64,000 nt of DNA, taken from contig NW_012236500.1 in assembly GCF_000787575.1 (NCBI RefSeq), positions 298,061 to 362,060 of the forward strand. The letters are read 5' to 3'. The stretch is from Acytostelium subglobosum LB1. Taxonomy: Eukaryota; Evosea; Eumycetozoa; Acytosteliales; Acytosteliaceae. The notes beneath the pieces are model-generated. The model did no database searches. It saw only the letters and a list, made by a program, of their open reading frames with translations, and was not told where the DNA came from. This document shows positions 967 to 64,000 of the stretch, piece after piece (position 1 is the stretch's first letter; the number at the start of each line of letters is the position of its first letter). Both the position numbers and the translations under genes were made by a program.

Positions 967-2337
967 TTAATGGGTGAAGGTTGAGTTGTGTGGGCCGACC
1001 TTGATGTTGGAGTAGACAACGTAGGCGTTGGGGTACTGGCTCTCGACGTACGATGGACTTCCAGAGGTGGTAGAACATCCTCCACGTGCAACACCTGGTT
1101 GGTTGGCTGGGACATTGGTTGGGTAGCTAGAGTCCAACCACAACATGTCAACTGCATAGTCATCCCAGAGAGACATGACGAGGACCATGCCACCTTGGAT
1201 GGCCTCGCCCATAGCCTTGAGACCACCGTGCTGGTTGAAAGAGTCAACGTCGCCAAAGGCCTTCTTCTGTTGGACACAGAACTCTTGGTTGATCACATTG
1301 CCTGGGACATCCTCAACGATCGAGAGGGAGTTGGGGATCACCTTGCCATCCTGGACGTAGAAACGACGGATCTCGGTGAGGGTTCCAGTTGGGGTACCAT
1401 CGTCGGTGATGAACTGGGTGACAACGGTGACAACCTTCTTGGTGTCGACGGTAAGGCCTGGTCCAAAGAAGGTCTCATTTCCCATACGGTATGGGTTGAA
1501 GTCACATCCATCTGGGTCACAGGTGCCAGAGTAACGGTTGGTCGAGCTGGCGCCTCCACACTTGTCACCATCACACATCACGTTGCCCGGGGTGTCACAC
1601 GCGTGTGGGGTGAGGGCGGTAGCCATGCTGTTGGCCTCCCAAAGGTCCATCTCGGCACAGCACGAACCATGACCTCCAAGTCCACTGTTGGTTGAAGTTG
1701 GGGTCCATCCCTCAGAGTTTGCCTGACCTTGGATAAACTTGACATCTCTTGGGCATTGAGCATCACAGTAGCCAGTTCCAAACTTGGCACCAGCCTTGTT
1801 TGTGGGGTGCTTGGCCATACCTCCATCAGAGTCCATCGATACCAAGTAGAGGGCACCGTTGAGACCACATGGCAAGTTGGATACATCGACGTCAAAGGTG
1901 AACTCTTGGCCGAGCAACTGGAACATCTGGTAATCAGAGTCGTTAGCCATCAGGTAGAGACGGGATCCAACATTCTTGTTTTGGCCTTGGGTCACAAAGT
2001 TGAGGCGGAGTGCGTCACCCTGGGTGGTGACTCCGTAGGTGGACTCGTACTGGGCTCCATCTAGAGCGCAGTTGGCAGCGCAGGTCACATCATCTGGACA
2101 GTATTGCTCGTTCCACAGGTTTCCGGTGTAGCAGTTGGTTCCTTGGGCACTGTGAACCCATCTCCAGTTGGCATCCATGACGACCTCTCCTTGGACCTGT
2201 TCACAATGGCCACCCTGTTGGCACTTTTGCCAAGTCATTTGTGGATGTACCTCTGGTGTCATTGTACCAGCTTGTTGGGCAATATTTAATGATATACATA
2301 ATGATACAAATATTAATAATATTTTAATTGATTGCAT
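967..2337 (-). CDS. cbhA: Secreted GH7 cellobiohydrolase (exoglucanase)
   Basis: Uninterrupted 456-residue frame with a hydrophobic N-terminal signal peptide (about residues 1-20), so the enzyme is exported. It is a glycoside hydrolase family 7 catalytic domain: the signature [11 protein letters not shown] supplies the retaining catalytic set E229, D231 and E234 (nucleophile, helper, acid/base). The many paired cysteines, GLNGALY and the [14 protein letters not shown] segment are also typical of Cel7 proteins. It hydrolyses cellulose chains processively, releasing cellobiose. There is no linker or CBM1 cellulose-binding module at the C-terminus, as in Dictyostelium CbhA but unlike Trichoderma Cel7A. 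The gene symbol follows that homology. In amoebae the likely substrate is bacterial or plant debris, or the cell's own spore and stalk cellulose. No intron is needed. GH7 membership is secure; exo rather than endo action is inferred. Confidence 0.93.
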
Positions 2338-3642
2338 TTTTGTTTGATTTTGATTTGATTGAATATTATTTTTAGTTTAATTTAATATACAGATAATAAT
2401 AATAATTATTATAATAATAATAATAATATTAGTTGTTGTTATTATTACACACACACAATCTATATATTAAATGTAGAATGAAGATAGTCAGGATACCAAT
2501 TTATAGTTTGAGTCTTAGAGTTAGTTCTTAGGCTTAGGCTCTGACCGAGGCCGAAGAGTGGGGTATTCATTGTAATTCAACGACTCACCCTCACTCACAC
2601 ACTCTTACAGGACTCGGGGTTTGTGTTAAACTTAAGTAATATTATAACAATCTTTGACTTAACCAACCCTTGGAGAGGGCAGGGCCATCCATTTCTTGAC
2701 GGTTGACTACCGACAACATCATCACACCCATACTTTAGATGATGAGAAGGAGGAGGATGAGGATGTTGGGTCCAGCTATGGGAACGATAGATATCTTATC
2801 GACTCAATGTGGATTGTTTATTGAGAGACTCAATACAATACAAGTTGGTTGAGTGGGAACCTCGTCTAACCGAAAGATGTATCACCAATCTATTTTATCT
2901 TGAAAAGGTTTTCCAAATGGAGAACTAACCAATGGACGTTTGAGTTGTCAAAATGAAAAAAATCAACAAGGGGCCACTTGCAGAGTTTTGGCAGGGCTGG
3001 TGTTGACGTGATCTGATGTTATTGTTATTCCAATGAATGGATGAATGGATGAATGGATGAATAAAGGTGAAGGAAGATGGTGTCCGTATAAATGGAGACG
3101 GAGGTTTTGACTCGACACACAGACTACTACTCGACATTGGTCCGTTGAATTTATAACAGGAATCGGTATCACGACGCGTCTTTCAAATTAATCAATCAAT
3201 CTATCAATCAATAGTTCAATCAATCATAATTATCTTTGCATATACAATTGCAACTTCTTCCTACTCAAGTTGAAATTGCATCATCAATCAATCATTGCAG
3301 TTGAATACTTCAGAAGAGTATTCTAAAAATCTGATGAAGTGTAAATAGTTTAATTGAATTTCAAGTCAATAAAGATCCAACTGATAATCTTTAATATTAA
3401 AATATTTTGATTAAATAAATATTCCATCCAAACCTTCTCTTTCTAGCCCTCTCTCCAATTGGATAGTACAACCAGAATTACTTTTAAAATAATAAAATAT
3501 ATTTTGTTCTAGTTATCCCAAGTATACCTAGGCAAGTCCTTTACTTTGGCACTATACCATATAAAACTGACAATTACCTTCGTCACAATAGTATACATGT
3601 GGTTTTGATTTCCATCAATGAAGTATATTCATCGGTCCGTTG
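2338..3642. other. Intergenic region upstream of the GH7 gene
   Basis: About 1.3 kb without a supportable protein gene. The first 130 bases hold AT-rich (TAA/TTA)n sequence that probably contains the GH7 core promoter. The middle part (2470-2900) is less AT-rich but has only short open frames. A GAATGGATGAATGGATGAAT repeat lies near 3033-3062. I see no tRNA fold or known RNA motif here. Confidence 0.5.
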
Positions 3643-3771: not shown

Positions 3772-3842
3772 GGCTCCATAGTTGAATGGTACAATACTAC
3801 CTTTGGGTGGTAGTGGTCTGGGTTCGATTCCCGGTGGAGCCC
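3772..3842 (+). tRNA. tRNA-Pro (anticodon UGG)
   Basis: A 71-nt sequence folds into a full cloverleaf. The 7-bp acceptor stem is GGCTCCA with TGGAGCC; the D stem is GTTG/CAAT; the anticodon stem is CTACC/GGTAG with loop TTTGGGT, giving anticodon TGG at 34-36; the variable loop has 4 nt; the T stem is CTGGG/CCCGG with loop TTCGATT. The discriminator base is C, as in eukaryotic tRNA-Pro. The internal B box GGTTCGATTCC is intact. There is no intron and no encoded CCA. It reads proline CCA and probably CCG/CCU codons. It stands alone between the cellulase and CPSF1 genes. Confidence 0.95.
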
Positions 3843-28939: not shown

Positions 28940-31189
28940 TCAGTCCTTTATCTTTAACTTGTTTCCTGCTGCCCTGCCAATGGTAAAGAATACATTTCTC
29001 TCCTTCTTGTTCTCGGCTTGATCACCTCCTCCCCCTGCATTCGACTTGGATGATGGTTTGATTGGTGATGGTAGGGTCTTGGATGAGCCAGCTGGTAGTG
29101 ACGAGAGTGATGATGATGATGAGTTGGGAGGTGGAGGGGGTGGCCTCAATGTAAGAAGGCCTGGTAGTACACTGGTGATCGAGGCTGAGGCTAAGGCAGA
29201 GGCCGAGTTGGTAGAGTCTGATAATGACCCATCATTACTATCAGCCAATGAACTATCCAGTGTCTTCTTCCAATCGACCCTGCTCATGGCGACTGTGTTC
29301 AACATTCGTTCCTTATTCTCTTGATTCAATAGCTGAACATAATAGCATGACTTCTCTGTGACCAACAATAGGCTGTTCATGAATCCTACGTGTGTGTGGT
29401 GGAATGGTTGGGGTGGGTGGAATGGTTCCAGTCAGTCGATGCTCTAACTCATCAATCAATCATTTCTGGAAGATAGATACCAAAGATGTCTGCAATGTCA
29501 ATGACTTTGGTACTCTTGAGAAGTGAACAATCATTGATGGTCCACACAAGTTTGGAAGATGATGAGGATTGGAGGAGACTGGATAGTCCAGCCTTGGTAG
29601 GCTTGGCCTGTTTGGAGACCATGACGAAACAATCGTTGAATATATAGTATCCGTGATCCTTGCCACATTTGAACTCATCTGGAAACACTGTGTTGCTCTC
29701 CACTGTTGGTGACTGAGTCGATGACTTCTTCTTCTTCCTTCCCTTCATATACTTATGTACCCTCTTCAATATATCATCTTCATCCTTCATCGGATATATT
29801 GAATGTACAAATAGCTCTCCATTGAGATATAACTTGCGATTGGGTTCCAACACATTCTAGAGCATGGTGTAATGGTGATCATCTGTCAGTCAAATATGAT
29901 CACTCATCATCAGTGCACTGATATATCTTGATCATATATCTTGATCATATATCTTGATCATATATCTTGATTGAGTGCACTGATATATCTTGATCACTTA
30001 CCACTTTGTCAATTAGAGTCTCTTGGAACTCTTGCATCTTGCTAAGGTTCTCATCATCCCTCTTGGCCTCATTGATGAACTGAGTGACACTCTTGATTCC
30101 ATTAATACAGAACTCAAGTATCTTGACATTCCTATGTCCTGGTGGTGTATTCTTTAACAACTCCTACAATGAATGAATGAATGATATCCTTCATCATCAG
30201 TTTGATGTACCAACTCATTGGCTAGATGATGTGCCCAAAAGTACGTACATTGAGCAATAATACATATCTTGGAAGTCGTTGGACTGGCATGATGAGTAAA
30301 GAACTCAGGTCTTGTCCATTACATTGAGGATCTGCTCTTGCTTTCTGGTTTGATTGATTGATTGATCGATTGATCGATTGGATGAATGAGTGGAATGTGA
30401 TCCAGAGCAGAGTGACACATCAACACATACCTCGAGAAAGCTAGCCACTGATGATTTCTTTCGAAGTCGATTGAGTGTTTGGATTATCTTGTCATATGAT
30501 ACTATATAAAGACTATACATTGTGAAGTTGCTCCTCTGTCTCATCAAAGAATGTTAGATATATCAGGTCATGATGGGACTATCCCACTCAGAGGTTCCGC
30601 TCCACACACATGTGGCAGAGATGGTGTTGGGAACACTTGGATGGGCAGGTCCATAACATAACATACATGCTTGTTGAATATGTCTGTGAAGTCAATGGAT
30701 GCCTCAAGTGAGACATGATTCTGATTCTTCTTCTTGTTGTTGTTGTTGATGATCTGCTTGGATTTGCCACTTCCACTTGCACCATCATCCATTGAAACCT
30801 GTGATGATTGAATGGCAGCATCCCATGAGAATGAGTTGTAACATATTGCCAACTCTTGGAAGAAGTCACGATGGAATGCAATGATGGGATCTATACTTGA
30901 GAACAACTCCTTGTGATTCTCTTTGCCAATCACATTACGTTTGAGCATCGGTTGACTGAACACCTCATCAATCACCGATAGATAGTTGGTATAAGTTCTC
31001 TCAGTCTTTACCAACTCTTCCAATATCTGCTCTCTCTTCTTGTTCTGTTGTTCCGATGCTTTGTTGTTGTTGTTGTTGGTGCGTTAGTCAGTCAGTGTCA
31101 CACTCGACCAAGGACTCCAACTTACGACTTCCCGGCGTGCCACTTGTTCCCTCGCCCAAGCTACCAGTCTTGGTTGGTTGGTTTCCCAT
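28940..31189 (-). CDS. DH-PH RhoGEF
   Basis: Seven exons (31189-31126, 31058-30667, 30535-30431, 30344-30249, 30163-30002, 29856-29481, 29385-28940) join in frame to 546 residues. The DH domain covers about residues 30-295: ILEELVKTERTYTNYLSVID (CR1), FTMYSLYIVSYDKIIQTLNR, then QDLSSLLIMPVQRLPRYVLL (CR3, the PVQR-PRY signature) and the last helix in MQEFQETLIDKV. The PH domain follows, with LYLNGELFVHS and YYIFNDCFVMVSKQ. It should catalyse GDP/GTP exchange on Rac/Rho GTPases at membranes, controlling actin. The N-terminus MGNQPTKTGS carries Gly2 and could be N-myristoylated (inference). The C-terminus is Ser/Pro-rich and basic. The internal exons had to be placed by DH-domain continuity; all donors are GT and acceptors AG. 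Confidence 0.9.
29919..29997. repeat. ATATCTTGATCAT tandem repeat with AGTGCACT flanks, in RhoGEF intron
   Basis: Four near-perfect 13-nt units (ATATCTTGATCAT) lie between two copies of AGTGCACTGATATATCTTGATC, within the intron at 29857-30001. The same two motifs recur, in inverted orientation relative to each other, in the spacer at about 52316-52380. Confidence 0.75.
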
Positions 31190-49030: not shown

Positions 49031-51166
49031 ATGTACTTCAACTACAACAATGAGAGAGATAATGAAGATGAGCATGATGTTGATGTTGATCCTACCCGTG
49101 ATGGACAGTTGACTGATGATCTCTATGTAGAGTATCATCTCTTTGTTGACGATGACTCGACTTCACAAGCTCAGACTGTGGATCAGCTTGAACGACTAAG
49201 GATACAATACACCGAATATCTCTCAACCAATCATATACGTGACTACATATGGCAGAGAGACCCTTTCTTCCTCAAGATATACAGTGGCCAGTCGAAGACA
49301 ACAAAGGGTATGTCACCGAGCGAGTGTGTATGTCCTCCCCAGTCGCTAACACATGCAACAGCAACAACAGCAGCAGCAGCACCTCCACATTTATACGGCC
49401 GAACAAGATTCGATGATGCAATTGATGATGAATGGTTCATTGTGTATCTGTTGATGCAGTTGACGCGACAGTTCACAAACATCTCGGTCACTGTGAGGGA
49501 CAATGATGGCGAGTTCTTGTTGATCGAGTCGGCACAGACATTGCCCAAGTGGATGAAGCCAATGTCTACACACAACCGAGTGTTCATTCGTAATGGACAC
49601 CTCCGTATCATACCCATAGCATCGTCTCCATCAGAGTTGGACATGTTACCCTATCGCATGGACTTGGTCAGCGCACTCACTTTGCTGCGGCGCGATACAC
49701 AATCTTCATCACATTCACTGGATACATCGCCTCCCATTCAAACTGTACAGGCGATCGATAAACGATTGTCTCGCTTCATCAATGGAAAGTACATGAAGGA
49801 TCAATCACATGTGGCTTTGGTCAGACTACCAGTGGACTTGGCCTTCCTGCTTAAGCGATACCCTCAGCTCGTATCAAACATTGTTCATTGCTTCTACAAC
49901 AGAGATGCCGATGATATGGCGGCGGTGTCAACGATGAAACGATTCCCTGTTCGCACGACTCTCGATCAAGGCATGACGATGGTCGACACTAAGATACGAT
50001 TCACAAGATGTCTGTACTCTCAGCTTAGACAACAGCGATTCAATCAACCACGTCAGTTCCCACCGCTGCCGCGACCCACCGCGCCAGAGTACCAGGCTGC
50101 AAGCTTGGGCGTCAAGGTGCATTGTGGCGCAGAGATGATGTATCGCAGGAAGACTCATGACGTCCTGCACAGCGCATCATGGAAGGCGTACCTACAGCGT
50201 CTCAAACAGAGCGACTACTTTGGTGGGGAGGTCGAAGGATCCAAGTTGTATAACGAGCGAATGATCAAGGCTAAGGAGGAGTTTAAGAAGCAGACCAAGT
50301 CTGCATCAACGTCAGAACAAGTGTCATCACTGGCGAGCTTCATGGATGAAGTGTTGGCTGGACAAGACCAACAATCAATGCTCAAACTGATACAGGAGAG
50401 TGACGATAAGTTAAAGGAATCGAGCGATAAGTGGTTGGACAAGATACCATCGCGTCTGGAGGACTTGTTGACAGAGTTTGAGAATGCCAATGGCTCATCG
50501 GATGGCGGCGACAAGAATAAGAACCCGATGGACAACATGACCAAGCAGTTCCAGCGCATGATGGAGCAGCATTCATCGATTGATGGTGTGGACTTTGGGG
50601 CGCCAAAGTCCAAGGAGTCGGCATTCGATCCCGAGAAGTTCATGTCCATCCTCAAGAATATAGTTGGCATAGATAACAAACAAGCTGGAAACAATATCAA
50701 TGATGGAGATGACAGCAGTGATGACGAGATGTACGATAGGATCGAAGACTATGGCGAGGAAGGTGATTACAAGGACGACGATGATGATGGCAATAACAAC
50801 CAAGACGACGATGATGATGAAGATGATGATGATGACGACTTCAAGGTATCAATGGAGGACACAGACTATGATGATGTATATCTTTCAAACCTGTTACCAC
50901 CAAGGAGGTCAAAGATGGAAAATGTAATGCATCAGATGGACATGGAGATTGCCAATACTCCCGTGGGACAATCATTCGAGAAGGTCCAGTACGAAGGTGA
51001 TGAGGACAAGGATCCCAAGACACTGGAAGCCGACAAGATCAATCGACCAGTGGATCTCAACTTTAACCTTGTCAAGAACATACTCGGTTCGCTATCATCC
51101 CAACAAGGTTTGGCAGGACCAGCCTCCAACATTCTAAAGGAGTTGATCGACTCGAAGAAGAAGTAG
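49031..51166 (+). CDS. Ecdysoneless (ECD/SGT1-family) homologue
   Basis: Intronless, 711 residues from ATG 49031. The N-terminal half has the ECD signature: RDYIWQRDPF (about residues 70-79), PHLYGRTRFDDAIDDEWFIV, DNDGEFLLIESAQTLPKWMK and HNRVFIRNGHLRIIP. ECD proteins are soluble nucleocytoplasmic factors needed for cell-cycle progression and pre-mRNA splicing (PRPF8/U5 assembly) in animals, and rescue glycolysis regulation in yeast. A very acidic run (DDDDDGNNNQDDDDDEDDDD, about 580-600) precedes a final conserved helix region. The TTG/ATG upstream at 49022 adds only three residues. The convergent RidA fusion gene stops 35 bases away. Confidence 0.93.
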   Translation: MYFNYNNERDNEDEHDVDVDPTRDGQLTDDLYVEYHLFVDDDSTSQAQTVDQLERLRIQYTEYLSTNHIRDYIWQRDPFFLKIYSGQSKTTKGMSPSECVCPPQSLTHATATTAAAAPPHLYGRTRFDDAIDDEWFIVYLLMQLTRQFTNISVTVRDNDGEFLLIESAQTLPKWMKPMSTHNRVFIRNGHLRIIPIASSPSELDMLPYRMDLVSALTLLRRDTQSSSHSLDTSPPIQTVQAIDKRLSRFINGKYMKDQSHVALVRLPVDLAFLLKRYPQLVSNIVHCFYNRDADDMAAVSTMKRFPVRTTLDQGMTMVDTKIRFTRCLYSQLRQQRFNQPRQFPPLPRPTAPEYQAASLGVKVHCGAEMMYRRKTHDVLHSASWKAYLQRLKQSDYFGGEVEGSKLYNERMIKAKEEFKKQTKSASTSEQVSSLASFMDEVLAGQDQQSMLKLIQESDDKLKESSDKWLDKIPSRLEDLLTEFENANGSSDGGDKNKNPMDNMTKQFQRMMEQHSSIDGVDFGAPKSKESAFDPEKFMSILKNIVGIDNKQAGNNINDGDDSSDDEMYDRIEDYGEEGDYKDDDDDGNNNQDDDDDEDDDDDDFKVSMEDTDYDDVYLSNLLPPRRSKMENVMHQMDMEIANTPVGQSFEKVQYEGDEDKDPKTLEADKINRPVDLNFNLVKNILGSLSSQQGLAGPASNILKELIDSKKK

Positions 51167-51200: not shown

Positions 51201-52160
51201 CTACTGTGGCACCAGTGCAACAGACTTGATCTCGATCAATAGGTTGGGGTTGGGAAGTTGGTGAACGGCAACGGTTGTACGGGTGGGACCATTGACAGCG
51301 TTGAAGTAGTTGTTGTAGACGTTGTTGAACTCTGCATAGTCCTTCATATCGACGAGGAACACTGTGACATCGATAACATGCTCCAAGTCAGCACCAGCTG
51401 ATTTCAGAATCGTTCTAATGTTCTCAATGACAGCTCTAGTCTGCTCTTTAATGCACAGCTTAACAGTTCCATCAGCTTGTGTTGTGACCTATTGATTGAT
51501 TGAATGAGTGATGTTGAGTGAGTGATTGAGTGAGTGAGTGATGTTGAATGAGTGATGTTGAATGAGTGATGTAGAGTGATTGATTGAACTTACACCTTCG
51601 TAGGTGTTGTCTGGTCTCCTTGAGGAGATACCACTGACAAAGAGGAAGCCTCCTGCCTTTCTCATGTGAGGGTAGTTGGCCAGTGCCTTTGCACGATCAT
51701 CAAGAATGTATCCTTCTCCGTTCTTTGACATTATTGTATCTTTAGTGATCTAAATTGAATGATTGATTGATTGAATGAATGAGTATGTATGAGCAAATAT
51801 GTGTCATTTGTGTGTCGGGAATGAGTGGGATCATGATCACAAAAGGTCGGGAAATTTCAAAAACGTCGTCTTTTGATCAAAGTGATGAGAATGAACACTT
51901 ACATCAACAGTATGACCGTATGATGCTTTGATGTATAAGTTACCATCTGGTAAGGTATCTAGAGTGAATCTCTTCTTTTCACAAGAGTCTACAACCTTCT
52001 TTAGTTGTACTAATGATACTCCTTGTAGTTGTTTGAATGCCAATACATCATTAACATTCAAATAACCATCCTTTGTTACACTTAGACCTTCCTTAACAGC
52101 ACCATGTCTTAATAAATATGATAAAGTCTTTGATATACGTATTGATTCTGAATCCGTCAT
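51201..52160 (-). CDS. Predicted fusion: Tpt1/KptA N-lobe plus RidA
   Basis: Predicted exons 52160-51903, 51749-51594 and 51488-51201 give 233 residues. Exon 1 (86 residues) is the N-lobe of a Tpt1/KptA tRNA 2'-phosphotransferase: [20 protein letters not shown] contains the catalytic Arg-His pair, EKKRFTL the third catalytic Arg, and [11 protein letters not shown] the xxGHS-like loop. The NAD-binding C-lobe with the fourth catalytic Arg is absent. Exons 2-3 encode a complete RidA/YjgF protein ([41 protein letters not shown]) with the imine-hydrolase Arg (GPTR) and Glu (IEIK) present. The 153-nt intron has GTAAGT and TTTAG, phase 0 on both sides, and the same CAATCAATC-rich 3' end as other introns. 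RidA could alternatively start at its own ATG (51731, 141 residues), leaving a 107-residue truncated N-lobe. Each domain is secure; the fusion is inferred. Confidence 0.7.
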
Positions 52161-52315
52161 TGTTTATGTATGTATGTATGTATGTATCTTGGAGTATGAA
52201 TGATTATTGAATGGTTTGATTGACACTTCATAGGATACCAAGTTGATCATCATGTTTGGAAATGAAATTCTGGAAGAATTCCCAGACTTGTTATTTATAT
52301 GATCAATCAAGATTT

Positions 52316-52380
52316 TTGATCAAGATATATGAGTGCACTGAATGATCAATCAATCAAGGTTTATGATCAAGATATATGTT
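52316..52380. repeat. Dispersed GATCAAGATATAT / GAGTGCACT element
   Basis: The spacer between the RidA fusion start and the PPR stop holds TTGATCAAGATATATGAGTG followed by CACTGA, then TTATGATCAAGATATATG. Both motifs also occur in the RhoGEF intron at 29919-29997 in the opposite orientation. Copies cover about 65 bases here. The rest of the 240-base spacer shows nothing else. Confidence 0.6.
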
Positions 52381-52400: not shown

Positions 52401-54283
52401 TTATTGTGTAAAGAGTTGGTTGGCAACTTTTGGATCACGTTGATGTAGGTAGTCATAGACTGTTTCGTGGAAGATTGACATGTTCATATCGGTAGTTGAC
52501 TTGATAAGATATAGTGATGTGATCAGATTGTTGTAATTGTTCTCTTTTACCAACTCGCTTAGAATTGATTTCCAGAACCAGTCACGTCGTTCATTGACCA
52601 CATTGTTGAACTGTGGCGATACGATGATCTCGCGACAACTGTTGGCCGAGTTGCTGTCCGATGAGTGCTGACACAGGAACTTGACCACCGTGAAGTATAT
52701 TGGTGAGTTGATCCTGTTGTTGCGCAGCAGGTAGTTGAAGATCGACCAGGCTTCAGCCACGCGACCGTCCATCAGCAGCGCCTTGATCATAAAGTTGTAG
52801 AATATGTCCTGTGTCTCGGCATTGTGGAAGAACTTGTCCTTGGCAATGTTGAACAACTTCATCATCCTCTCCGAGACATTGTCCATCTTGAGCAAGATCT
52901 TGGCGTAGCACGTGGCGGCGGCCGGTGTGATGTAGCGCGGACACTCGACCCATGCCCTGTCCCAGAAGTCCTCGACCTGGTCCAGCGGCATCATAGTGAG
53001 CATGTGTGTCAGCGTGACCGATTTCATGATATAGAATGCGTTGGGCGTCTGCTTGAAGAAGTCGATGGCCAACTGCGCCAGCGCCGGATCGCCAAGTCGC
53101 TCGTAGGCAACCGAAAAGCTCTCGATGATCGCACTGAACAGCTTGCCATCGAGCGGCAGATCCGTCTTTTGGAACTCCTTGAGCAGATACACCAAACACT
53201 GTCCCGTCTTCTCCTGGGCAAAGGGCATGAACAGGGTGTGATATGAGACGATGTCAAACTCTGTGCCCTGTCGCCTCATCTCGTCAATGATCGCCAGACA
53301 CATCTGGAATTGGCCGTTGATGGCAATGCGCTTGATCAGCTCGTTGTAGGTTGTGGAGTCGACCATCGACTCCTTGTGCGCCTTGGCCAGTGTCTCGAGC
53401 ACCTTGTCCATGGCGCCAGCGTTGGCGTACGTGTTGATCAGGTTGGTGTATGAGAAGTTGTCGGGAGCGATCGCGGCAAAGAGCTCCTCGACGCGCTTGA
53501 CATTGCCCTCAGCGGCATAGTGCGACATCAAGGTGTTGTACACGAAGCGCTTGTCCGTGTCCGTATCGGTGGGTTCGACAAGCTTGTGATAGTTCATGTA
53601 CACCTCCTCGATTGACTTTGACGACGCCTTATGTTTCTTCAATGCATTGATCACCAAGTTGTGGAACTTTGAACTCTTTGACTTCTTACTCAGTCTCTGT
53701 ATGTTATAGAACTCCATTACCTGTGCTTCATTATCAAGTTCCAGAAGTCTATGTAGTCTATTCATTCATTCATTGGTTCATTCGTTTGTTCGTTAGTTGG
53801 GTATGATCATACTCGCTGAATTGATCAATCAATCAATCAAACATACCCTCTAAATCCGAGGGCAGTGAATGGTGCCATTCCGTCGGGTCCTGCTAGTACT
53901 TCATCTTCTCTTATAACCTTCACCATCTTCTCACTCAGGAAGACTGGAGATGCTTGTGTCTTGGTTGTTGAGGATTTTGAGGTTGAGGATGTTGAGGTTG
54001 AGGATGTTGAGGTCGAGGCTGAGGTTGTAGTTGATGTCGATGGTGTATCAGTGTTGTTTGATTGATATCTTCTTTCTTTGTTATCATTGCTTGATCTAGG
54101 TCTAGATGTTGATGTTGATGATGTTGTTGAGTTGCAATGTTGGTGACCCAGACCCATGTTCACAACGCTAGAGTTACAAAACAACAAACATGAAACTGAA
54201 GCAATGTCATTCCTCAATATGAATTGAATAGGCTTAACAGCATTGTATGATGATGTTAACAGTCTTCTTGTTGCATTCATCAT
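52401..54283 (-). CDS. Mitochondrial pentatricopeptide-repeat (PPR) protein
   Basis: Exons 54283-53847 and 53757-52401 give 597 residues. The N-terminus MMNATRRLLTSSYNAVKPIQ is basic, Ser/Thr-rich and lacks acids: a mitochondrial presequence. A (ST)n and Ser/Thr/Lys low-complexity segment follows. From about residue 150 there are helical-hairpin repeats of PPR type: FVYNTLMSHYAAEGNVKRVE, FSYTNLINTYANAGAMDKVL, TTYNELIKRIAINGQFQMCL and FDIVSYHTLFMPFAQ. PPR proteins bind organellar RNA and direct its processing or translation. The splice (GTATGT...AATAG) is phase 2 and joins GFRG to LHRLLELD. The individual RNA target cannot be inferred, and no DYW or other catalytic domain is present. Confidence 0.88.
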
Positions 54284-55915: not shown

Positions 55916-58900
55916 ATGATGGCACTACCATCATCAACTTCCAATCGATTGTGGCTAAATGCCATACTCTTCCTGGCAATATTACTTCTACTCTCTGGAT
56001 CAACGCATGGTAGGTTATCGATTCGATTAGGATTGGATTTGATTGGATTGTTTGACCAATGGATATTGGATAATAATTTTTCCTGGATATCAGCTGATCA
56101 AATTGATCACGTGACTTTTTGGAAATTCCAAACACATAAACTAATACTTAAATCCATCAATCATTATAATTATAGCCCAGAAAGCAGAGGAACCATTTGC
56201 ATGCAGAACGGTGAAATGTCCACCTGGCCACATTTGTGTTCAGCCAAGGGATGACCTCCCAACAATGTGTCTGCCATATTGTGATTTTATTACCTGTCCT
56301 TACGAGACAAAGTGTCACGTCGATCTGGACACGGACGAGGTCAAGTGTATACCTGATCCAGACTTTGGAACAACCACCCAGAATCCTCCTACAAAGCCCC
56401 CGACGCCCCCAACTACTGAGGCTGGCACCACACACAGGACCACAAGATGTCCAACCACTGGATGTACTGATAGCAGCAGTGAATCATCAGAGTCGTCTGA
56501 ATCGTCTGATTCCACGACCGGCACCACGTCCACAACCTCGTTGCCTACCACAACTTCCACTCCAACTTCGTCCACCTCCCCATCCACGACCTCTGCGCCT
56601 ACTTCGTCGCCAACCACGTCGTCGCCAACCACAACTTCGGAGCCAACTACGACCTCGGAACCAACGACGACTTCGTCACCATCAGGCACAGCTTCGACAT
56701 CGGCATCAACCTCAGCCTCGACAGCTTCAACCATAGTATCAACTGTGGCCGGTGCAACAGGTACAGCTTCGACTCATGGAACAACAACTATATCGACTGC
56801 ATCGACCCTTGCTACGACATCGGCCTCGACCACTACCAAGCCGCCAACAACCGCATCAACTGCATCGACAACCAAGCCACCAACAACGTCTGCCTCCACG
56901 GCCTCGACAACCACACCTCCACCCAATGACACTACCAAGCCATCTACCGTCTCTAGCCCACCAACTGGTCCTCCCACTACTCACCCAACCACCGGAACAG
57001 GTGCGACCACTTTGACCACGGCAACTGGCCAGACTACCAAGCCTCCAACTACGTCGACAACAGCCACCACGGCTACTACAACAACTGCAACAACAGCCAC
57101 CACAACCCATACCACAAACAATCCCACTTCCACTTCGCCAACATCTGTGTCTCCATCTTCAGAGGCTACTTTGGCAAGTACCGCCACTACCGCCACTACC
57201 GCCACTACCGCCACTACCGCCACTACCGCCACTACCGCCACTACCGCCTCTACAGCCTCTACAGCCACTACAGCAACTACTGCCACAGCAACTGCCACCA
57301 CTATCGCTGGAACGGTAACAGGTGGAGTCACTGTTACTGGCGTTACAACGTCTCAACCTTCTACCATTGTTGGAGTGACCACTGCAACTACAGTCACAGC
57401 CACATCAGCCACTACAGCCACCGCTACTTCCGCCACGGCAACTGCTACTTCCGCCACGGCAACTGCTACTACCGCTACTGCAACGGCTACTACAGCTACA
57501 ACTGCTGGAACTGTCACTGGAGTTACTACCTCGCAGCCAACTACAATTGCTGGTACTGTAACAGGTGGAGTCACTGTCACTGGTGTCACAACATCTCAAC
57601 CATCAACAATTGTTGGAGTGACCTCAGCAACAACCGTCACAGCCACATCAGCCACAGCTAATACAACATCAGCCACTACTGCCACGGCAACGGCTACGAC
57701 CGCCACAACTGCTGGAACTGTCACTGGAGTTACTACCTCGCAGCCAACTACCATAGCTGCAACGGTAACAGGGGGAGTCACAGTCACTGGTGTCACAACA
57801 TCTCAGCCATCAACAATTGTTGGAGTGACCTCCGCAACAACAATCGTCACCGCCACAGCCACTGCGACAGCCACTGCCACGGCAACAACCTCCACACCCA
57901 CTGCGACATCTGCAACATCAGCAACAACTGCTTCGACAATCATTGCCACAGTGAGTGCTGGCACAACCTCGACACCTGTTTCAACATCAACTGCAAGCTC
58001 AGTCACTGGTATCACAACATCGCAGCCAACCACCATTGCTGCTACAGTGGCGACCACTGCTGTGACAACCTCGCTCCCAACATCGGCAACAGGATCAATC
58101 GCTCAAACTGTGGCGGCCACAGGCATCACTACCTCAGAGCCCACATCGATTGCAAGCACAATTGTTACCACAACTGGAGTCACCACGGCGACAACTGCCA
58201 CTGCGACATCTGCAACTGCTACTGCAACCACTACCACACCAACTTCGGCCACTGCTTCGACTATCATTGCAACCGTCAGTGCTGGAACAACCTCCACTCC
58301 ATTGACAACTTCAAGTGCTGGAACAGTCACTGGCGTCACAACATCGCAGCCAACCACCATTGCTGCTACAGTGGCGACAACTGCTGTGACAACCTCGCTC
58401 CCAACCTCAGCCACAGCATCCATCGCTCAAACTGTTGCCGCAACAGGCATTACCACCTCTGAGCCAACATCGATTGCAAGCACTATTGTGTCCACAACTG
58501 GCATCACCACTGCAACAACTGCCACCACGGCAACAACTGCAACCACAACACCAACTTCAACATCGGCCACAGCTTCGACGATCATCGCCACAGTGAGCGC
58601 TGGTACCACCTCGACACCATTGACAACCTCAAGTGCTGGAACAGTCACTGGTGTCACAACATCGCAGCCAACTACTATTGCTGCAACAGTTGCCACCACA
58701 GCAGTGACCACATCTTTGCCAACCTCAGCCACAGCATCAATTGCCCAGACTGTTGCGGCCACAGGCATAACAACCTCAGTGCCAACTTCGATTGCAAGCA
58801 CCATCGTCACCACAACTGGAATCACGACGGCGACAACTGCAACTGCCACCTCAGCGACTGCCACTACCACCGCACCAACAACGGCTACAGCTTCCACAAT

Positions 58901-61900
58901 CATCGCCACCGTTAGTGCTGGTACCACCTCAACACCAGTGTCAACATCAAGCACTGGTACAGTCACTGGTATTACCACATCTCAGCCCACTACCATCGCT
59001 GGAACTGTTTCCACGACTGCTGTGACAACATCTCTCCCAACCTCAGCCACAGCTTCAATTGCTCAAACTGTTGCCGCGACTGGCATCACTACCTCAGAGC
59101 CCACATCGATTGCAAGCACCATTGTCACCACAACTGGAATCACCACGGCAACAACTGCTACTGCTACATCGGCGACTGCAACTGCGACATCAGCAACTGC
59201 AACTGCAACCTCGGCAACGGCTTCGACGATCATTGCAACCGTCAGTGCTGGAACAACTTCCACACCTTTGACAACTTCAAGTGCTGGAACAGTCACTGGT
59301 GTCACAACATCGCAGCCAACTACCATCGCTGGTACTGTGTCGACCACTGCCGTGACAACCTCACTTCCAACATCAGCCACCGCATCAATCGCACAGACTG
59401 TTGCCGCGACTGGCATCACCACCTCAGTGCCAACTTCGATTGCAAGCACCATTGTCACAACAACTGGAATCACAACTGCCACGACAGCCACCGCAACATC
59501 TGCAACGGCAACAGCCACCTCGGCTACTGCCACAGCTACTTCAGCGACTGCAACTGCCACTACCACCGCCTCCACCATTATTGCCACAGTTAGTGCTGGT
59601 ACTACCTCGACACCACTGACAACCTCAAGTGCTGGTACAGTCACCGGTGTCACAACATCTCAGCCAACTACCATCGCAGCGACTGTGTCGACCACAGCTG
59701 TAACAACATCACTCCCAACATCGGCCACTGCATCAATTGCTCAGACTGTGGCCGCTACTGGAGTGACAACATCACAACCAACCTCAATTGCCAGTTCCAT
59801 TGCTGGTACTGTTGCGAGCACTGATGCAACAGGTACAACTATCACCGCCACTACTCTCGCGACAGCATCAATTGCCACAAGTGGTCCGACAACCTCTAAT
59901 CCAACCTCCATCGCGAGCTCAGTTGCCAGCACTGATGCCACAGGCACAACAATTGCCTCAACCACCACTCCAACATCGGCCACAGCCACCTCAACAGCCT
60001 CGACCATCATTGCCACAGTGAGTGCTGGAACTACCTCTACACCAGTGTCAACATCGAGTGCTGGTTCAGTGACTGGTATCACAACATCTCAGCCAACGTC
60101 AATTGCTGGAACCGTGTCGACAACAGCCATTACAACATCACTCCCAACATCGGCCACTCAATCAATTGGTCATTCGATCTCATCAAGTGGTGTGACAACC
60201 TCAGAGCCAACTACCATTGCAGGTTCTGTTGGAAGCTCAGTTGCCAGCACTGTCGCCAGCACTGTCGCCACAGTTACCAACTCAATTACCAACTCAGTTG
60301 CCTCATCGATTGGATCAATTGCCAGCTCTGTATCAGGATCAGTTGCATCAACAACTAGTGCTACTGCTGGAACTGTCTCTGGCACTGTTGCCACCGCTTC
60401 CACAACTGCACCATCAACTGCAACAGCCACTGCTGGATCAGTATCAGGCACTGTTGCTACTGCCTCTGGTACAAGTGCCACTGCCACAGCTGGATCTGTA
60501 TCGGGTACTGTTGCCACCGCAACCAGCGCCACTGCCACAACCACTGTTACCGCCGGTACTGTCTCTGGCACTGTCGCCACTGCCACTAGTGCAACTGACT
60601 CGTCAGCAACCACCGCTACAGCAACGGCCACAGCCACATCAACAGCCTCGACGATCATTGCCACCGTGACAGCCGGCACTACCTCAACACCAGTGTCAAC
60701 ATCAAGTGCTGGTTCAGTGACTGGCATCACCACATCGCAACCAACTTCAATTGCTGGAACTGTGTCGACAACAGCAGTGACAACATCACTCCCAACATCG
60801 GCCACTCAATCAATTGGTCATTCGATCTCATCAAGTGGTGTGACTACCTCAGAGCCTACCACTATTGCAGGTTCTGTTGGAAGCTCAGTTGCCAGCTCAG
60901 TTGCCAGTACTGTCGCCAGCACAGTTGGAACAGTTGCCAGTTCAGTTACCAACTCGGTTGCTTCATCAATTGGTTCGATCGCCAGCTCAGTATCAGGATC
61001 AGTCGCTTCAACTACTAGTGCTACTGCTGGTACTGTCTCTGGCACAGTTGCCACCGCCACCAGCACCACCGCCCCATCCACGGCCACCGCCACAGCTGGA
61101 TCAGTCTCTGGAACTGTTGCTACCGCCTCTGGTACGAGTGCAACAGCAACTGCAGGATCAGTCTCTGGCACTGTTGCCACTGCTTCAACAACTTCCCCAT
61201 CCACGGCTACAGCCACTGCTGGCTCAGTATCAAGCACTGTTGCTACTGCTTCGGGAACAAGCGCAACTGCAACAGCTGGATCAGTCTCGGGCACTGTCGC
61301 CACAGCGACCATCGACACCGCATCCACCACAGCCACTTCAACAGCTTCGACGATCATCGCCACAGTGAGTGCTGGAACAACCTCCACTCCAGTGTCAACA
61401 TCAAGTGCTGGCTCAGTCACTGGTATCACAACATCTCAGCCAACCTCAATTGCTGGAACAGTGTCAACCACTGCTGTTACGACATCACTCCCAACATCAG
61501 CCACTCAATCAATTGGTAATTCAATCTCATCAAGTGGTGTGACAACCTCAGAGCCTACAACCATTGCAGGTTCAGTTGGTAGCTCAGTCGCCAGCTCAGT
61601 AGCTAGCACTGTCGCCAGCACAGTTGGAACAGTTGCCAGTTCAGTTACCAACTCAGTTGCTTCATCAATCGGATCGATCGCCAGCTCAGTCTCAGGATCT
61701 GTTGCCTCATCCACAAGTGTAACTGCTGGTACTGTCTCTGGAACAGTTGCTACTGCCTCCACAACTGCACCATCAACTGCTACCGCCACAGCTGGTTCAG
61801 TCTCTGGAACTGTTGCTACTGCCTCTGGTACTAGTGCTACTGCAACAGCTGGTTCAGTCTCGGGAACAGTTGCCACCGCATCAAGCACCGCGCCATCAAC

Positions 61901-64000
61901 GGCCACCGCCACAGCTGGTTCAGTCTCAGGCACTGTTGCCACCGCTTCGGGAACAAGTGCTACTGCAACAGCTGGATCAGTCTCGGGCACTGTCGCCACA
62001 GCCACAAGTGCTACTGACTCGTCAGCTACTACCGCCACCGCCACAGCCACAGCAACTTCAACAGCCTCAACCATAATTGCCACAGTGAGTGCTGGAACTA
62101 CCTCTACTCCAGTGTCAACATCAAGTGCTGGTTCAGTGACTGGCATCACAACATCACAGCCAACCTCAATTGCTGGAACTGTGTCAACCACTGCAGTGAC
62201 AACTTCACTCCCAACATCGGCCACTCAATCAATTGGTCATTCAATCTCATCAAGTGGTGTGACAACCTCAGAGCCGACCACTATTGCCGGTTCTGTTGGT
62301 AGCTCAGTCGCCAGTTCAGTTGCCAGCACTGTCGCCAGCACAGTTGGAACAGTTGCCAGTTCAGTTACCAACTCAGTTGCCAGTTCAGTTGCTTCATCAA
62401 TCGGTTCGATCGCCAGCTCAGTTTCAGGTTCAGTAGCATCGTCCACAAGTGCTACAGCCGGTACTGTATCGGGAACAGTTGCCACCGCTAGCAGCACAAC
62501 CGCCCCATCCACCGCTACCGCCACAGCTGGATCAGTCTCTGGCACAGTTGCCACTGCCTCAACTACTGCCCCATCCACGGCCACAGCCACAGCTGGATCA
62601 GTATCAGGTACTGTTGCAACAGCCTCGGGAACAAGTGCCACTGCAACAGCTGGATCAGTATCAGGAACTGTTGCCTCCTCAGTAAGCTCAGTTGCCAGTT
62701 CAGTGGCCAGTTCCGTCGCCTCATCAATCGGTTCGATCGCCAGCTCAGTCTCAGGATCAGTTGCCTCATCCACAAGTGTTACAGCTGGTACTGTCTCTGG
62801 AACAGTTGCTACAGCCTCCACAACAGCACCATCAACTGCTACCGCCACAGCTGGATCAGTATCTGGAACTGTTGCTACCGCCTCTGGTACCAGTGCCACT
62901 GCCACTGCAGGTTCGGTTTCTGGCACAGTTGCCACTGCCTCAACAACCTCCCCATCCACGGCTACCGCCACCGCTGGCTCAGTATCAGGTACTGTTGCCT
63001 CCGCGACCAGCGCCACGGCCACAAGTGCTACTGACTCGTCCGCCACAACTGCCACGGCCACAGCCACTTCAACAGCTTCGACCATCATTGCCACAGTGAG
63101 TGCTGGAACTACCTCAACACCAGTCTCAACATCAAGTGCTGGTTCAGTGACTGGCATTACGACATCTCAGCCAACGTCAATTGCTGGAACTGTGTCAACC
63201 ACTGCAGTGACAACATCACTCCCAACATCGGCCACTCAATCAATTGGTCATTCAATCTCATCAAGTGGTGTGACAACCTCAGAGCCTACAACCATTGCAG
63301 GTTCTGTTGGAAGCTCAGTTGCCAGCTCAGTTGCCAGCACTGTCGCCAGCACAGTTGGAACAGTCACCAACTCAGTTGCCAGTTCAGTTGCTTCATCAAT
63401 CGGCTCGATTGCCAGCTCTGTTTCAGGATCTGTTGCATCAACAACTAGTGCCACCGCCGGTACTGTATCCGGTACAGTTGCCACCGCCACCAGCACTACC
63501 GCCCCATCCACAGCCACAGCCACAGCTGGCTCTGTCTCAGGCACTGTTGCCACCGCATCAGGTACAAGTGCTACCGCCACAGCTGGTTCAGTCTCTGGCA
63601 CTGTTGCCACCGCCTCCACCACCGCTCCATCCACGGCCACAGCAACAGCTGGTTCTGTATCAGGTACTGTTGCCACTGCCTCGGGTACAAGTGCCACAGC
63701 CACAGCTGGATCAGTATCAGGAACTGTTGCCTCCTCAGTAAGCTCAGTTGCCAGTTCAGTAGCCAGCTCCGTCGCCTCATCAATCGGTTCTATCGCCAGC
63801 TCAGTATCAGGATCGGTTGCCTCGTCAACTAGTGCTACAGCTGGTACTGTCTCGGGTACAGTTGCAACTGCCACCTCTACTACCGCTCCATCCACAGCAA
63901 CAGCCACAGCTGGTTCTGTATCTGGAACAGTGGCCACTGCTTCAGGTACNAGCGCNACCGCAACAGCTGGATCAGTATCAGGCACTGTCGCCACNGCCTC
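55916..64000 (+). CDS. Giant secreted Thr/Ser-rich mucin-like protein with N-terminal FOLN-type Cys module (3' end outside window)
   Basis: Exon 1 (55916-56009) encodes a signal peptide with core LWLNAILFLAILLLLSG. A GTAGGT...TTATAG intron (166 nt) leads to exon 2 at 56176, open to the right edge, so at least 2,639 residues. A Cys module (about 38-90) comes first: FACRTVKCPPGHICVQ, MCLPYCDFITCPYETKC and EVKCIP, two follistatin-N-like units. Then come: a Thr/Pro/Ser segment with SSESSESSES; an (ACC GCC ACT)n run at 57180-57245; six units of about 106-116 residues containing SIAQTVAATGITTSEPTSIA (from 58.1 kb); and from 60.1 kb longer units starting with SATQSIGHSISSSGVTTSEP. Heavy O-glycosylation and a role in the sheath, coat or cell surface are inferred. 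The frame agrees at 56.2, 57.4, 59.0 and 64.0 kb, so repeat growth kept the frame. The paralogue lies at 25.3 kb. Confidence 0.88.
57180..57245 (+). repeat. (ACCGCCACT)n 9-nt tandem repeat in the mucin gene
   Basis: About seven perfect ACC-GCC-ACT units code for Thr-Ala-Thr. Unlike the neighbouring repeats, third positions are identical here, which points to recent expansion. Confidence 0.85.
58101..60082 (+). repeat. Six tandem units of 318-348 nt in the mucin gene
   Basis: The marker coding A-Q-T-V-A-A-T-G recurs at 58101, 58425, 58743, 59061, 59391 and 59739, with spacings 324, 318, 318, 330 and 348, all multiples of three. Each unit also contains the TSQPTTIA and STIIATVSAGTTSTP blocks. 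Confidence 0.8.
60161..64000 (+). repeat. Higher-order units of 648-1011 nt in the mucin gene
   Basis: ATCAATTGGT (coding QSIG) marks unit starts at 60161, 60809, 61508, 62228 and 63239; the spacings are 648, 699, 720 and 1011, all multiples of three. Each unit contains SSVASSV/STVGTV blocks and a variable number of ATAGSVSGTVATA cassettes, which accounts for the length differences. Ambiguous bases (N) occur at 63950, 63956 and 63995. Confidence 0.8.

Follow-up and report, generated by a model that had tools for sequence, protein, structure and literature searches.

The closest described systems to the locus reported here are the Tpt1/KptA/TRPT1 enzymes (PF01885) and the Rid-family deaminases. 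In the crystal structure of the C. thermocellum Tpt1, residues 1–85 form the RNA lobe and residues 86–182 form the NAD lobe. The RNA nucleotide and the transferred phosphate are contacted from the RNA lobe by Ser10, Lys11, Arg18, His19, Lys66, Arg68 and Tyr80, and the contact made by Arg121 comes from the NAD lobe (PMC6333775). The same report describes Runella Tpt1 mutants in which replacing Ser8, Lys9 or Gln78 by alanine left in vitro activity almost unchanged. For Rid domains, the fusions described in the available text of a family survey are tandem 3x-RidA proteins, with other arrangements being rare (PMC4433059). A search of the open-licence PMC literature, which covered the wider topics in part, found no report of a Tpt1-RidA or KptA-RidA fusion, and the portion of the Dictyostelium exon-shuffling literature covered held nothing on these genes. 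Here, we describe a locus in Acytostelium subglobosum LB1 at which the RNA lobe of Tpt1 is predicted to be spliced onto a complete RidA.

A predicted gene joining a Tpt1 RNA lobe to RidA

The window, the whole 64,000-nucleotide stretch of DNA that was analysed, has a G+C content of 46.3% and carries the predicted gene on its minus strand (Table 1). The initial annotation had read the first exon as the N-lobe of a Tpt1/KptA enzyme and nothing more. The Pfam match agrees with this reading, covering the first half of the profile, from position 2 to about 83–92 of 177. An in-frame stop stands one codon before the exon 1 ATG. The 3′ end of intron 1 is CATTCAATTTAG at 51750, and the phase 0 junction leads in frame into the codons ITKDTI and a complete RidA, which confirms in the sequence the arrangement first annotated. 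The Rid domain extends over profile positions 4–120 of 121 (PF01042, E 1.3e-28), and the spliced product of 233 residues holds both Pfam domains on one chain. Both start codons, that of exon 1 and that of RidA, have an A at position −3. When exon 1 is read through its donor it forms 108 codons, to 51837, and the read-through stop is only 105 nt away from the Met of RidA.

Table 1 Features of the predicted fusion gene, in window positions, and RNA ligase loci of the same genome
Feature	Position	Strand	Evidence
Exon 1: Tpt1/KptA RNA lobe, 86 codons, 258 nt, from ATG	51903..52160	-	PF01885, E 2.1e-23
Intron 1: 153 nt, GTAAGT...TTTAG, phase 0	51750..51902	-	Sequence; donor position matches that of the intron in C22 Tpt1
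Linker codons ITKDTI	51732..51749	-	Sequence; AmnE alignment
Exon 2: linker, then the beginning of RidA with its Met at 51731	51594..51749	-	AmnE alignment; sequence
Intron 2: 105 nt, GTAAGT...AATAG, phase 0, within RidA	51489..51593	-	AmnE alignment runs on across intron 2
Exon 3: remaining RidA, stop codon 51203-51201	51201..51488	-	Sequence; PF01042
T4-Rnl1-like RNA ligase locus	L101 1267-2556		PF09511, E 2.7e-40
T4-Rnl1-like RNA ligase locus	L102		PF09511, E 5.6e-35

These features suggest that exon 1 is spliced onto RidA in vivo, and we regard the fusion gene model as likely to be correct. It has gained strength from two results set out below, the paralogue intron at the same lobe boundary and the constraint on exon 1 at the protein level.

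The predicted gene is convergent with an SGT1-family gene (49037–51166, plus strand, PF07093, E 1.1e-130) and has a PPR-repeat protein gene in tandem upstream of exon 1 (52404–53765, minus strand). Elsewhere, the window holds a complete glycosyl hydrolase family 7 (cellulase-type) gene (970–2376, minus strand, PF00840, E 1.8e-200) and a tRNA-Pro (tgg) at 3772–3842 on the plus strand, with no further tRNA genes found. Tandem-repeat arrays with units of 9 to 330 bases run from 56600 to 64000 at the contig end, for example with a period of 318 at 57930–59492. The arrays are open in several frames and probably belong to one or more large repetitive protein genes. In raw counts, the window has 76 copies of the TGATCA palindrome, of which 6 are in 29876–29991 and 7 in 51834–52364 around exon 1.

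A full-length Tpt1 elsewhere in the genome and the origin of exon 1

We searched the genome (30.73 Mb, 56 contigs) with PF01885 and found two loci only, the window exon and a complete Tpt1 on contig C22. A search with exon 1 itself returned the same two loci. A separate full-length Tpt1 is thus encoded in the genome and contains the sole NAD lobe, which upholds the earlier observation that no NAD lobe follows exon 1. The same whole-genome search rules out an NAD-lobe exon overlooked nearby.

The first exons of the two loci give an ungapped alignment from Met1 through residue 85, and the encoded proteins are 61% identical, differing at 33 of the 85 positions. The coding intron of the C22 gene is 78 nt long, is in phase 0 and follows residue 87 (...RANQGHTIKQ / VDDVEF...), and the window exon ends after residue 86 (...KASYGHTVD). 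Since the lobes of the C. thermocellum enzyme divide at 85/86, both introns cut at the structural lobe boundary. Because the C22 intron is in phase 0 at the equivalent boundary, the window exon is most simply read as a duplicated Tpt1 first exon that would still be using its old donor. Capture of the exon by RidA, an origin suggested in the initial annotation, is the best account of where the exon came from.

A tree of the RNA lobe was calculated from 85 sequences and 82 columns, comprising 80 prokaryote sequences (the best 80 of at least 579), three solved structures, the C22 lobe and the window lobe. The window exon groups with the C22 Tpt1, and support was 100 for the four-eukaryote group and 87 for the human–yeast group. 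Branch lengths of 0.40 for the window and 0.12 for C22 indicate faster evolution in the window exon. The grouping of the lobe with the genome's own Tpt1 led us to reject a bacterial or phage origin. A tblastn search against 50,697 phage records found nothing, and none of the viral contigs searched contained a relative of the fusion. Around the best 80 of at least 579 bacterial KptA loci, flanks of up to 3 kb gave no match to RidA at an E value of 1 or lower.

Age of exon 1 and constraint on its protein

Comparison of exon 1 with its C22 counterpart gave dN 0.35 and dS 1.50 by NG86, and dN 0.32 and dS 1.11 by LWL85. These dS values are rough and near saturation, because the maximum-likelihood estimate ran away (18.7) and YN00 gave no result. 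Shared fourfold sites differ in 12 of 22 cases. The exon thus appears to be old (dS about 1.5) yet constrained at the protein level. The clearest stretch is codons 8–24, within which lie Ser10, Lys11, Arg18 and His19, and which show no amino-acid and 8 synonymous differences from C22; permutation of the longest unchanged run gave P 0.003 for this stretch, which was chosen after inspection.

We simulated unselected decay starting from the C22 exon, with 1000 runs per divergence. At 0.75 substitutions per site, 1.0% of the 1000 runs were free of stops and none retained as much identity as is observed. With 0.2 substitutions per site, 12.3% were stop-free and 906 of 1000 retained that identity. 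The initial annotation had allowed that the exon is a mere remnant, a reading that is disfavoured by an active-site helix unchanged in protein against 8 synonymous changes. Pre-fusion selection counts in all of these figures, so the constraint covers the whole history of the exon and not the fusion alone, and selection before the fusion may explain part of it.

The RNA lobe retains its pocket residues and predicted fold

Alignment places three of the four catalytic residues in exon 1, namely Arg18, His19 and Arg64 (equivalent to Arg68 in C. thermocellum), in agreement with the first reading of the sequence. At each of the 7 RNA-lobe contact positions, the residue in the window exon is one that a solved Tpt1 also has. 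This includes the Tyr site, where the window sequence IKASYGHT matches IRALYGHS of C. thermocellum. Gln occupies this site in the C22, human, yeast and Runella enzymes and in the 80 prokaryote sequences, for which the pattern used to find them requires Gln. At sites conserved in more than 85% of those 80 sequences, the window differs from C22 at positions 28 and 33 (mild) and by Asn60Cys, Arg78Lys, Asn80Ser and Gln81Tyr; only site 81 is in the published contact list (PMC6333775). Decay of the IRANQGHS motif was considered and dropped for position 81, since C. thermocellum has Tyr80, a phosphate contact, at the same place. At most one change in the seven contact sites has a P of 0.16, so retention of these sites is not significant alone.

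The lobe was modelled alone by AlphaFold2 from 69 homologues, with a pLDDT of 87.1 and a pTM of 0.75, residues 83–86 being of low confidence. Comparison of the predicted lobe with the PDB gave seven matches at E 0.001 or better, all of them Tpt1/KptA proteins, with human TRPT1 (E 4.4e-7) and mouse TRPT1 (E 6.5e-7) at the top. La motifs appear among the matches from rank 19. A chance match of the lobe is ruled out by the Pfam E value of 2e-23 together with the structural match to human TRPT1.

The locus has no NAD lobe, and so neither the HGT motif nor the fourth tetrad Arg, and for this reason we do not class the predicted protein as a Tpt1 enzyme. NAD-dependent 2′-phosphate removal by the fusion is expected to be absent. 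Given that the gene is real, binding of phosphate or RNA by the lobe has, in our estimate, a little less than an even chance.

The main rival to a binding lobe is that the fusion is real and that the captured exon mainly served to provide RidA with a promoter, with a start codon or with an extension that stabilises it, the lobe binding nothing relevant. We judge this somewhat unlikely. The faster evolution of the window lobe relative to C22 (0.40 against 0.12) fits such a role, as do the loss of the family-conserved Asn60, Arg78 and Asn80 and the Runella alanine mutants, which indicate that some contact residues are dispensable even in an active enzyme. However, a leader need only fold, and the active-site helix is frozen in protein despite synonymous change, with Arg, His and Arg of the tetrad retained.

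The RidA half is of 2-aminomuconate-deaminase type

The closest solved relative of the RidA half is the 2-aminomuconate deaminase AmnE (6izh, E 9e-41; next best 6.8e-20), with which it shares 71 identical residues over 134 aligned. Conserved cleft residues are as in 6izh at 5 of 6 positions (Ser35, Gly36, residue 103, Arg117 and Lys135), and Glu88 is replaced by Asp. Residue 103 is called Gln in the AmnE paper (PMC6742747); it is Asn in the 6izh PDB sequence and likewise in the window. In the AmnE hexamer contact between Arg56 and Met96, the window keeps Met96 and has Thr for Arg56, a change which bears on the oligomer state of the Pseudomonas enzyme rather than on substrate class. Thus, by its sequence the RidA is of 2-aminomuconate-deaminase type and its substrate would be 2-aminomuconate. 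By analogy with the family, it would form a homotrimer with imine/enamine deaminase activity.

This RidA is the only close copy found in the genome, the next RidA being 34% identical. By extrapolation from the alignment, the Met of this RidA falls near residue 3 of AmnE, so ITKDTI was probably once part of the RidA 5′ UTR. A role for the RidA half in kynurenine breakdown is plausible, because a Rid-family putative 2-aminomuconate deaminase gene is found in fungal 3-hydroxyanthranilate clusters (PMC7842363) and the same genome encodes a 3-hydroxyanthranilate dioxygenase (3-HAO). Nothing useful was found in the part of the literature on Dictyostelium kynurenine metabolism that was covered.

Splice sites, codon composition and the number of genes

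The strong part of the splice evidence is the donor, which occupies the position of the homologous intron; the minus strand of the 64-kb window contains 15 copies of GTAAGT. Apart from the AG of the donor itself, AGs occur at intron positions 33, 153 and 163 between the donor and the RidA Met, and only that at 153 (TTTAG) gives an in-frame, stop-free path into RidA. This acceptor lies 18 nt ahead of the RidA Met, in frame. Further in-frame AGs are present within RidA, and their use would cut into it. As a background, we took 62 mechanical ORF starts, for frames of at least 120 codons on both strands of the window. An in-frame open YAG was present within 30 nt upstream of 9 of these starts and within 60 nt of 15, so the acceptor alone is modest evidence. 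An in-frame open acceptor of the TTTAG, TTCAG or ATTAG type was present at 0 of the 62.

The 3′ end of intron 1 had initially been credited with the texture of genuine introns. The texture is real, in that CAATC accounts for 0.47 of the last 60 nt, and the CAATCAATC texture before the acceptor is common to RidA intron 2 and to intron-like stretches in 3-HAO and two other RidA loci. As a mark of introns, however, it is weakened by CAATCAATC-type runs at 42 places in the window (22 on the plus strand and 20 on the minus strand) and by the C22 Tpt1 intron, which is without the CAATCAATC/CAATC texture.

The main result against one gene is the contrast in GC3, which is 0.22 in exon 1, 0.50 and 0.55 in the RidA exons, and 0.32 and 0.35 in the C22 Tpt1 exons. 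This puts exon 1 at the AT-rich extreme: over the opening 86 codons, GC3 is 0.30 or lower in 7 of 40 long window ORFs and below 0.22 in 1. With 7 of 40 long ORFs at or below 0.30, codon composition is not decisive as proof of two genes, and we keep it as counter-evidence. The contrast may reflect unequal expression.

A locus with two products would accommodate unlike codon composition as a sign of unequal use. The promoter of exon 1 would drive the fusion, and a second start or an internal promoter would yield free RidA, leading to mixed trimers. This arrangement, which is compatible with the other readings, is also in keeping with the A at −3 of both start codons. The sequence, inspected by reading alone, gave no direct evidence of an internal promoter, and we rate the arrangement as rather unlikely.

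It is quite improbable that the locus consists of two separate units, with a RidA promoter in the 153-nt gap and a start at 51731, and with the Tpt1 exon as an independent short or slowly decaying gene. RidA can start on its own because its Met has an A at −3, and this Met is at the expected start in good context. The unlike codon composition of exon 1 and RidA is compatible with separate units, as is the background of in-frame YAGs before start codons, which at 9 of 62 within 30 nt is not rare. However, the perfect GTAAGT retained at the position of the homologous intron calls for an acceptor. The 105 nt from the read-through stop to the RidA Met leave little space, and neither AATAAA nor ATTAAA occurs from the start of exon 1 to 51701. 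Slow decay meets a further difficulty in the simulations, which make unselected decay unlikely at 0.75 substitutions per site, although 0.2 per site is far more permissive. We therefore retain a single spliced gene as the preferred reading.

Discussion

We propose, tentatively and as something possible rather than probable, that a two-domain gene arose by exon capture and combines a deaminase with a non-catalytic, phosphate-binding RNA lobe. A copy of the Tpt1 first exon, with its start codon and lobe-boundary donor, would have landed upstream of a RidA of 2-aminomuconate-deaminase type, and the orphaned donor would have been spliced into an acceptor in the probable 5′ UTR of RidA. In the product of 233 residues, a linker of six residues would connect the winged-helix RNA lobe of Tpt1 to a complete RidA. 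Lacking the NAD lobe, and with it the fourth essential arginine, this protein would not act as a phosphotransferase. Its RidA portion would form the family trimer and deaminate its substrate, so that three RNA lobes would be displayed per trimer. The lobe would keep its phosphate-gripping pocket and may use it to bind, while leaving it unmodified, either an RNA that carries a phosphate at its end or at a branch or some small phosphorylated molecule. In this way, the lobe could tether or regulate the deaminase. Of the readings that take in every retained feature, this is the most economical one. The module for binding RNA or 2′-phosphate that the initial annotation suggested is in keeping with the seven contact residues present.

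Ligands of this kind could exist, since the genome encodes a full Tpt1, RtcB and two RNA_lig_T4_1 family loci (Table 1). A tRNA_lig_CPD profile search gave no match, and its controls were equally silent. In its furthest form, which we hold to be unlikely, the proposal is of a RidA trimer carrying three silent Tpt1 lobes that would read 2′- or 3′-phosphorylated RNA and link kynurenine breakdown to tRNA splicing or RNA repair. Such a protein would have arisen by exon capture exactly at a lobe boundary, with the donor gene, the donor intron and the recipient readable in one genome. Kynurenine breakdown competes with NAD synthesis.

If the gene is spliced as predicted, it has a domain architecture for which we found no report, and which divides Tpt1 exactly at the boundary in the crystal structure. 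No second close copy of this type of RidA was found in the genome, so the enzyme that bears the extension would be a single-copy metabolic enzyme. On the same condition, the Tpt1 RNA lobe would be usable as a module without NAD chemistry, and the fusion would be a natural construct for testing whether the lobe alone reads RNA phosphates. It would also be an unusually legible exon capture.

Comparison with known systems indicates what has been kept and what differs. The window lobe resembles the Tpt1/KptA/TRPT1 proteins in RNA-lobe sequence, in predicted fold, at the seven substrate-contact positions and in sharing the exon end of the genome's own Tpt1; unlike them, the window protein is without the NAD lobe and the fourth tetrad residue, and has RidA fused instead. 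The best 80 of at least 579 prokaryote Tpt1 proteins are all full length (174–212 residues). The RidA half shares more than half of its aligned residues and five of the six cleft residues with AmnE from Pseudomonas sp. AP-3, from which it differs by Asp for Glu88, Thr for Arg56 and a 92-residue N-terminal extension. The Rid-domain fusions in the available text of the published survey likewise place a Rid domain inside a larger polypeptide, but these are Rid–Rid fusions, are prokaryotic and have no Tpt1 partner named there (PMC4433059). The predicted fold of the window lobe also resembles that of the winged-helix domains of La motifs (S. pombe Slr1, Foldseek E 5.5e-3), more weakly than that of TRPT1, and the sequence of the window lobe is clearly that of Tpt1. 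La motifs are RNA-binding domains without catalysis, and by analogy they would offer a precedent for a non-catalytic RNA-binding mode of the window lobe. Thus, the fusion is a new combination of known parts and not a new kind of system.
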